Assembly (NCBI RefSeq): GCF_003226255.1
Contig: NZ_QJST01000008.1
Coordinates: 1-64,000 of the forward strand
Reading direction: 5' to 3'
Length of the DNA: 64,000 bases
DNA from: Idiomarina fontislapidosi
GTDB lineage: Bacteria; Pseudomonadota; Gammaproteobacteria; Enterobacterales; Alteromonadaceae
Position 1 is the first letter of the stretch, and the number at the start of each line of letters is the position of its first letter. The translations under genes and the position numbers were made by a program. Below the pieces are notes generated by a model. The model was not told where the DNA came from, did not search any database, and saw only the letters and a program-made list of their open reading frames with translations. Of this stretch, positions 82 to 4,254 are shown one piece after another.

Positions 82-93
82 TGTTAAAGAGCG
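82..93 (-). promoter_or_regulatory. rRNA leader boxA antitermination site
   Basis: On the minus strand this reads CGCTCTTTAACA, a match to the boxA element bound by NusB-S10 during rRNA antitermination. It is followed at 43-60 by CTGTGTGGGCACTTGC, which resembles the segment after boxA in enterobacterial rrn leaders. A GCTTCG-TTCC-CGAAGC hairpin (96-111) lies just upstream of boxA. Together with two promoters further upstream, this marks the leader of an rRNA operon whose 16S gene lies beyond the left edge. Confidence 0.8.
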
Positions 94-224: not shown

Positions 225-280
225 ATTATAGAGATCCTATTCAGACTTGCAAGCACTTTTTTGAAATTAATTTTATATGG
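225..280 (-). promoter_or_regulatory. rRNA operon P1 promoter with UP-like AT-rich upstream element
   Basis: Minus-strand TTGCAA (252-247), a 16-bp spacer and a perfect TATAAT (230-225), followed by the GC-rich discriminator TCGCCGCC. Upstream (253-280) is very AT-rich with A and T tracts, as in the UP elements contacted by the RNA polymerase alpha C-terminal domain. The discriminator recurs at the spc promoter and in modified form at the S10 promoter, suggesting shared ppGpp/DksA control (inference). Confidence 0.78.
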
Positions 281-404: not shown

Positions 405-1256
405 ATGCACGCTTATACGAGATTTTCGCTCGTGAGTATTTTTAGTGCGAGCTTATTCATCGCACCAGCAGTTGCAAAACCGTTTAATATTTATAGTGCA
501 GAGCCAACGAATCCTGTGATTGGTGTTAAAGCAAGTGAGATCGATCTCACTGCACTGACCGAGCGTGAAGTCAATTTAATCAAGAAATACAATAATGTCA
601 TTGATGACCACCTCAACTATAACTTCTCGATTACCCGTACCGTACGTATATTGGTGAATCACTACCCACAACACGTCAATCAAATATTAGTGGCTGCGTA
701 CCAACACTATCCAACGCGAATACCCTTAATTAATCGCGCTGTCATTCAAGTCGAGCCAGCACTTACGTCTGACGTGCTAACCACCACTCACCTGGTCGCA
801 CCGCAAGCATTTGATGAAACCATAGCGCAAGCCATAGATGTTGAGCCAAGCTATATCGATGATATCGTAACAACAGCTACCCAATTGGCGCCCGAAAAAT
901 TAGATACCATCGTACGTGTTGCTATAGTCAGTGAACCAAGAATGAGCGAAACGGTTGTTAAATCTGCCGCTGAAAGTGCGCCGAATGGCTTTCTAGATGC
1001 TGTGGTGTCATCCATAAAAGAAATACCGCAAGTCACTAAATCTGCCTTTGTAGCAGTTCGCGACTTTTTTAGTTTTAATGAATCAGATGAGCGACAGATA
1101 CCAGAAGCTGAACAATGGCAACGTTTTATCGTTGAAGCTAAAGCTCAAGGAATTACTCGGGCAGAATTAGAGTGGTTTAAAGAACAAGGATACTTAACCG
1201 AAGAACAGATTGCCCAGGTTTATTCGGAACGAAAAACCAGACAACCAACTAACTAG
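405..1256 (+). CDS. secreted alpha-helical protein with eight exact 15-residue repeats, function unknown
   Basis: A 283-aa protein with a Sec signal peptide (about residues 1-24, cut after AVA). I do not recognise the family. Residues 88-207 are eight tandem units of exactly 15 residues. Each begins with proline (88, 103, 118, 133, 148, 163, 178, 193, with a closing proline at 208), has a hydrophobic residue at about position 4, Ile/Val at about 8 and often Ala at about 11. The pattern suggests one amphipathic helix per unit and a short solenoid; residues 73-87 look like a degenerate extra unit. The last ~50 residues are charged and contain WFKEQGYLTEEQI, which resembles a short-C-terminal-domain-like helix pair. 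The start ATG follows GGGGGA by 6 nt. The gene ends in a terminator shared with the convergent rplQ. Confidence 0.75.
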   Translation: MHAYTRFSLVSIFSASLFIAPAVAKPFNIYSAEPTNPVIGVKASEIDLTALTEREVNLIKKYNNVIDDHLNYNFSITRTVRILVNHYPQHVNQILVAAYQHYPTRIPLINRAVIQVEPALTSDVLTTTHLVAPQAFDETIAQAIDVEPSYIDDIVTTATQLAPEKLDTIVRVAIVSEPRMSETVVKSAAESAPNGFLDAVVSSIKEIPQVTKSAFVAVRDFFSFNESDERQIPEAEQWQRFIVEAKAQGITRAELEWFKEQGYLTEEQIAQVYSERKTRQPTN

Positions 1257-1270
1257 TAAAAGAAAGGCAT

Positions 1271-1300
1271 AAAAAAAGCCGGCTCAAGAGCCGGCTTTTT
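1271..1300. terminator. bidirectional rho-independent terminator
   Basis: Stem GCCGGCTC/GAGCCGGC (1278-1295), flanked by seven A residues on the left and five T on the right, so it can act in both directions. It lies between the convergent repeat-protein gene and rplQ, ending the alpha operon on the minus strand. Confidence 0.9.
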
Positions 1301-1318
1301 ATTTGGGGTTTAGAAATC

Positions 1319-3823: not shown

Positions 3824-4180
3824 TTATTTCTTAATCGGTTTGCGCGGACCTTTACGAGTGCGCGCGTTTGTCTTAGTGCGCTGTCCACGTAAAGGGAGGC
3901 TGCGACGATGACGAAGACCACGGAAACATCCGAGATCCATCAACCGTTTGATGTTCATTGAAACTTCGCGACGCAGGTCACCTTCGACTACGTACTTAGC
4001 TACTGCTTCACGAAGAACGTCTAATTTCTCTTCTGACAATGTACCGATCTGGGTATTTTCAGCAATGCCCGCTGCTTCGCAAATTGCGCTAGAGCGAGTA
4101 CGACCAATACCATAGATTGCAGTCAATGCAATCACCGCGTGTTTATTGTCAGGAACGTTAATGCCAGCGATACGGGCCAC
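3824..4180 (-). CDS. rpsM: 30S ribosomal protein S13 (GTG start)
   Basis: A 118-aa protein, the E. coli length, beginning (M)[14 protein letters not shown] and ending in the basic tail [17 protein letters not shown]13 sits in the 30S head and contacts P-site tRNA and 23S rRNA. Two in-frame GTG codons are possible; the inner one (4180-4178) is chosen because it gives the family N-terminus and lies 8 nt from AGGAG, while the outer GTG is only 2 nt away. First gene of the alpha operon. Confidence 0.97.
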
Positions 4181-4203
4181 TAACACGTCTCCTTTAATTT
4201 GTA

Positions 4204-4221
4204 GGCTTCAGTTGAAAAGCC
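4204..4221 (-). promoter_or_regulatory. hairpin in the alpha-operon leader
   Basis: Minus-strand GGCTT and AAGCC arms around an 8-nt loop, between the predicted alpha promoter and the rpsM ribosome binding site. In E. coli, S4 represses this operon through a structured rpsM leader. This leader would be only about 40 nt, so a similar role is inference. Confidence 0.35.
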
Positions 4222-4225
4222 CGTT

Positions 4226-4254
4226 AGGATACTCAACCGATTGCCGAATTGCAA
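4226..4254 (-). promoter_or_regulatory. candidate alpha-operon promoter
   Basis: Minus-strand TTGCAA (4254-4249), a 17-bp spacer and TATCCT (4231-4226), between rpmJ and rpsM. This is where the E. coli alpha promoter lies. The -35 is good and the -10 moderate. Confidence 0.45.

Follow-up and report, generated by a model that had tools for sequence, protein, structure and literature searches.

A family of putatively exported proteins with a strict 15-residue proline period, predicted to form short alpha-solenoids

An intact open reading frame near the left end of the window, which comprises the first 64,000 nucleotides of contig NZ_QJST01000008.1 of Idiomarina fontislapidosi, encodes a protein of 283 residues (Table 1). 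Prolines at residues 88, 103, 118, 133, 148, 163, 178, 193 and 208 of this protein are spaced by exactly 15, and the array that they mark is predicted to be a stack of short helices. We hold with moderate confidence that the protein is exported by the Sec system and is a soluble short alpha-solenoid of the cell envelope, most likely of the periplasm, which probably acts as a binding scaffold for an envelope protein or peptide. Export is suggested by the N-terminal sequence, the stacking of the helices by structure prediction and the binding role by analogy with other solenoid proteins.

Table 1. Features of the repeat protein gene and its surroundings in the window.
Feature	Positions	Strand	Basis
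boxA-like element of the rRNA leader, GCTCTTTAACA	82..93	-	sequence, relatives
P1-like promoter of the rRNA operon, TTGCAA-16-TATAAT, facing away from the repeat protein gene	225..252	-	motif; GAATTATAG block conserved in relatives
Gene for a 283-residue protein, putatively exported, predicted alpha-solenoid	405..1256	+	intact ORF, homologues in 143/247 genomes, strong purifying selection
Probable Sec (type I) signal peptide, residues ~1-25 (..APAVA-KP), without lipobox	405..479	+	hydrophobic N-terminus; heuristic
Variable N-terminal linker and first long helix, residues 26-72	480..620	+	pLDDT, fast evolution
Ten 15-residue helical units (residues 73-222), nine of them proline-started, as five 30-residue hairpins	621..1070	+	prolines, AlphaFold2, alignment
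C-terminal three-helix domain, residues 235-273, with conserved A245 and G249	1107..1223	+	model helices, conservation
GC-rich inverted repeat aaaaaaagccggctc-aa-gagccggcttttta, A and T runs on its flanks	1265..1302	+	read in sequence
Alpha operon ribosome-binding-site RNA, ordinary for that operon	4148..4248	-	Rfam RF00140, 78.5 bits

The 15-residue period and the predicted fold

The run of nine equally spaced prolines is longer than any found in 5000 shuffled sequences, where the maximum was six, and the spacing described in the original prediction is thus confirmed. When the protein is compared with itself using BLOSUM62, the similarity peaks at a lag of 30 residues (0.57) and at a lag of 15 (0.36), and the lag-15 value (z 6.6) is above the best of all lags in every one of 2000 shuffles. 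The profile of 30 relatives matches itself most strongly at lag 30 (0.71), followed by lag 15 (0.46) and lag 45 (0.37), and the match is negative at the neighbouring lags of 14, 16, 29 and 31. In these relatives P88, P118, P148, P178 and P208 are invariant and P133 is present in only 38%. Because lag 30 exceeds lag 15 and alternate prolines are invariant, the natural unit appears to be a 30-residue hairpin in which an A helix is paired with a B helix; the B units frequently have glutamate as their last residue, just before the invariant proline. The array is best read as five such hairpins with ten helices at residues 73–222, the first unit (73–87) being without proline and the last (208–222) being the ninth proline-started unit. 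The original prediction was of a secreted protein with eight exact 15-residue repeats, of which the exact period stands and the number of units is corrected to ten.

The secreted nature of the protein agrees with the N-termini of the family. A hydrophobic stretch near the N-terminus is present in all 33 homologues inspected and is signal-peptide-like by a heuristic, and its conservation across the homologues suggests export through Sec. At the other end of the gene, the inverted repeat is a probable terminator, judged from its sequence, common to this gene and the convergent rplQ. It is absent from the output of a terminator scan that required a loop of at least 3 bases, and was probably missed on account of a loop below that minimum.

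The units share a pattern of P1, I7, V8, A11 and I/L12, and position 11 is alanine, glycine or serine in 82% of cases. This small residue centres the nonpolar face of the helix, which suggests close packing between helices. Between units, pairs are 22–51% identical in DNA and the mean protein identity is 21%, which indicates that the repeat is old, as had been proposed from the strong divergence of the unit DNA (666–1025).

Homologues were found by protein search in 31 of 61 relatives, and a profile search of 247 genomes from the same family detected them in 143. The close relatives that carry names are Idiomarina species. The gene is single copy in all of the 143 genomes but one, which has two copies and is listed with 5% contamination. 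Outside the family, strong matches come solely from one other family of the same order (f15), and the weaker matches are different proteins. The viral contigs and plasmids searched contain no relative of the protein. An open frame of 1808 residues in one genome (G023) was considered as a fusion and rejected as an artefact of masked Ns.

Purifying selection on the repeat array is very strong. Among the 30 aligned members, whose identity to the I. fontislapidosi protein drops to about 20%, residues 70–222 are free of insertions and deletions. The repeat region has pN of 0.03–0.06 and pS of about 0.71–0.83, and against the nearest relatives pN is 0.03–0.05 and pS about 0.71, giving dN/dS of about 0.01–0.03 with synonymous sites near saturation, and the N-terminus has a dN/dS about ten times that of the repeat. 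The lack of indels and the great excess of pS over pN support the earlier suggestion that the period is kept by structural selection.

The structure of the full-length protein was predicted with AlphaFold2 from four close sequences, the I. fontislapidosi protein and three homologues (L031, L032 and L033). With this alignment the mean pLDDT is 72.2, with values of 80–94 over residues 91–200 and below 50 at residues 1–46, which are followed by a helix at 53–70. Helices are predicted at 76–86, 88–101, 103–116 and so on to 208–224, each unit being a 14-residue helix followed by a one-residue turn, and the C-terminal domain has helices at 235–247, 252–260 and 266–273. When the repeat domain is modelled alone the helix boundaries are unchanged, with a mean pLDDT of 85.6 and a pTM of 0.80. 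Both models agree with the helix and turn per unit that had been foreseen, and AlphaFold2 gave a repeating unit across residues 88–207. The tandem helices are of constant length and are predicted to form a regular stack, which would place the protein in the alpha-solenoid structural class.

Exchangeable apolipoproteins also have strictly periodic prolines at helix starts, in 22-mers, and in this respect they resemble the repeat protein. The helices could accordingly be of an open, apolipoprotein-like kind that binds lipid or a membrane surface, as a periplasmic lipid carrier or membrane coat. The proline-punctuated amphipathic helices of constant length, with hydrophobic moments of 0.2–0.5, and the putative export are in keeping with such a role. 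However, apolipoproteins have helices of 11 or 22 residues with large residues on the nonpolar face, whereas the period here is 15/30 and the nonpolar face is centred on alanine, which fits close packing better than insertion into lipid. The protein and most of its relatives are net acidic, and the confident helix boundaries and pTM of the repeat domain also argue against open helices. We regard lipid binding as quite unlikely and favour the closely packed solenoid.

Relation to known repeat families

The repeat protein is a confident member of no Pfam, NCBIfam, PHROGs or PDB-sequence family. Nothing in Pfam, NCBIfam or PHROGs is above threshold, and the Pfam repeat families, including HEAT, Arm, TPR, Sel1 and PPR, do not match it even at an E-value of 10. 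Among the matches listed for the 30 members no family recurs consistently, and none of the HEAT, TPR, Arm and Sel1 families is hit by several of them; a single member touches the HEAT model PF23593 with an E-value of 1e-4. The top match among PDB sequences is weak (E 1e-4), to the designed toroid dTor_12x31L, and its best stretch falls mostly within the C-terminal portion of the profile, outside the core repeats.

Structure searches, including the Foldseek comparison proposed beforehand, place natural and designed helical-repeat proteins first, none of them a confident match. Foldseek gave no match below an E-value of 0.001 for either the full-length or the repeat-domain model, the best being above 0.01. 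The best VIA-align match of both models is a designed crystal protein (Z 11.8 over 226 residues at 4.1 Å for the full model, Z 9.7 over 153 residues at 3.0 Å for the repeat domain). Next come Api5, FANCD2, TOG domains and designed repeats; Api5, FANCD2 and the TOG domains have Z values of 6–9, within the level usual for helical repeats. Since such values are usual for this class, as the tool itself notes, these matches point to a solenoid-like arrangement and not to a family. No family stands clearly above background in the Foldseek or VIA-align lists, and such an absence is no evidence of a new fold.

The 30-residue hairpin brings the protein near other short alpha-hairpin solenoids. In short HEAT-like repeats of the PBS-lyase/EZ type and in the designed alphaRep and dTor proteins, each unit of about 30–31 residues consists of two short helices and the units stack into an alpha-solenoid, and the repeat protein is like them in this. 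It differs from them in that both of its helices begin with proline and are equally long, in its one-residue turns and in having no Pfam HEAT match. TPR, Sel1 and PPR proteins have units of 31–38 residues and match a Pfam model, whereas the unit here has 30 residues and matches none. PilF, NlpI and MamA, envelope TPR proteins that occur among the Foldseek matches, are similar to the role proposed here in being envelope or membrane-associated alpha-solenoid scaffolds, but the TPR unit has 34 residues and another consensus.

Alternatively, one of the known solenoid families (short HEAT-like/PBS-lyase, TPR, Sel1, mTERF or PPR S-type) could include the protein as a degenerate member that has diverged too far to be detected. 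In length its two-helix unit comes near the shortest alpha-hairpin repeats known, the Foldseek and VIA-align rankings are headed by TPR, HEAT, Arm and designed repeats, and one of the 30 members touches PF23593. Against this stand the Pfam repeat searches, the failure of HEAT, TPR, Arm and Sel1 to match several members among the matches listed, and the P1, I7, V8, A11, I12 motif with its one-residue turns, which differs from the TPR and HEAT consensus. We think this origin unlikely. The view that no named family has this period is supported by the sequence and structure searches, which gave no confident match to a characterised repeat family. The earlier comparison of the period covered TPR (34), Sel1 (~36), HEAT (~40) and Pumilio (~36 residues) but neither the short HEAT-like repeats nor the designed repeats of 31 residues. 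In the literature consulted, chiefly non-subscription, no description of a 15- or 30-residue proline-started helical repeat was found, and the analysis brought up no binding partner, phenotype or solved relative.

Position beside the rRNA operon

The gene had been described as lying directly opposite an rRNA operon. It is divergent from one, with a P1-like rRNA promoter on the opposite strand (Table 1) and contig positions 1–260 aligning with the 16S leader of relatives, while the rRNA genes themselves are beyond the contig end; Rfam confirmed the 16S at the corresponding place in relatives. Both flanks were compared in 38 mostly closed genomes (L090–L127). A 16S gene starts 130–850 bp upstream of the repeat protein gene and divergent from it in 36 of these, one has 23S in its place, making 37 of 38 with an adjacent rRNA gene, and one (G025) has murB-birA at the expected position of the operon. 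In genome G066 (L098) the 23S is directly upstream with no 16S between, and assembly collapse is likely there because the genome yielded a single 16S. The convergent neighbour on the other side varies by genus and includes rplQ, purD, fadA, tuf, trmA and a TolC-like gene, among others.

This adjacency could reflect shared regulation and a growth- or ribosome-linked role. In favour are the divergent 16S or 23S in nearly all of the 38 genomes, where the opposite flank is occupied by at least six different genes, and genomes that lack the gene. Of eight such genomes examined, rplQ is readable in six, and a 16S adjoins rplQ in none of the six, one ending 150 bp from rplQ; the five with a readable rplQ flank have no rRNA operon beside rplQ. 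However, when the flanks of rRNA operons were compared in eleven genomes (L130–L183), two unrelated genes, one for a gamma-carbonic-anhydrase-like protein (c1) and one for a small membrane protein with an RNA-binding domain (c2), were found attached to other rRNA operons in the same way, so that the adjacency may be ancient rRNA-flank synteny. In addition, the putative export makes a direct role at the ribosome improbable, and in three genomes that retain the gene (G025, G030 and G687) no rRNA gene is seen upstream of it. The repeat protein gene and c2 have swapped their far neighbours, purD and trmA, between G168 and G026. Because c1 and c2 behave alike, we read the position as synteny of rRNA flanks whose far side has been rearranged and not as functional proof. 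Co-regulation with rRNA was set aside as a leading idea, and a growth-linked role seems to us very improbable.

The unit in other proteins and the proposed role

Through weak profile matches, with E-values of 1e-11 to 5e-4 per genome, other proteins were reached in which units of the type PxxAxxIVxAAIxA have their prolines at exact multiples of 15. The 15-residue units are present in short exported proteins of about 160–170 residues (L053, L054 and L062), in a further protein (L061) and in a FecR-like protein with a long repeat array (L060). Two transporter-like membrane proteins of about 700 residues (L057 and L058) have a C-terminal array of 15-residue proline-started units. All of these have the unit in common with the repeat protein but differ in architecture, having Gly-rich tails or fused domains. 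The C-termini of five such proteins (L053, L055, L060, L061 and L062) often end in SP(N/S/G), as ASPN, ASPS, SSPG or VSP, in some behind a Gly-rich tail. A wider search from the short exported proteins added little outside the same family, and no relative of one short exported protein with the 15-residue unit was found in the plasmids and phages searched.

Since most of these sequences are Ala-rich, their common descent is no more than plausible, and convergence is possible. We tentatively suggest that the 15-residue proline-started helix, paired in 30-residue hairpins, may be an unnamed class of alpha-solenoid repeat and a building block of several kinds of bacterial envelope protein, namely the rRNA-linked family, the short exported proteins and the FecR-like and transporter-like fusions. 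If so, few natural solenoids would have a helix-plus-turn unit as short as that of this class.

For the repeat protein itself, the analysis directly shows the 15-residue period, the family, the lack of indels, the selection on the array and the predicted helices. The role proposed above would work in this way. The signal peptide would direct Sec export and give a soluble envelope protein, most likely periplasmic. Ten 14-residue helices linked by one-residue turns would make a short alpha-solenoid, in which the proline that opens almost every helix would fix each helix boundary and the near-invariant alanine at position 11 would allow very close packing of neighbouring helices. The helix pairs would form 30-residue hairpins that stack and lead into the small C-terminal helical domain. 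Such a stack would present a rigid surface, probably binding an envelope protein or peptide in the manner of TPR and HEAT scaffolds while belonging to neither.

If the fold holds, helix length in this natural solenoid is at its lower limit, the array is free of indels and the helix boundaries follow a simple proline rule, all of which would be useful to repeat-protein design. The family would then represent an uncharacterised, putative envelope protein that over half of the genomes examined from a large family of marine bacteria possess.
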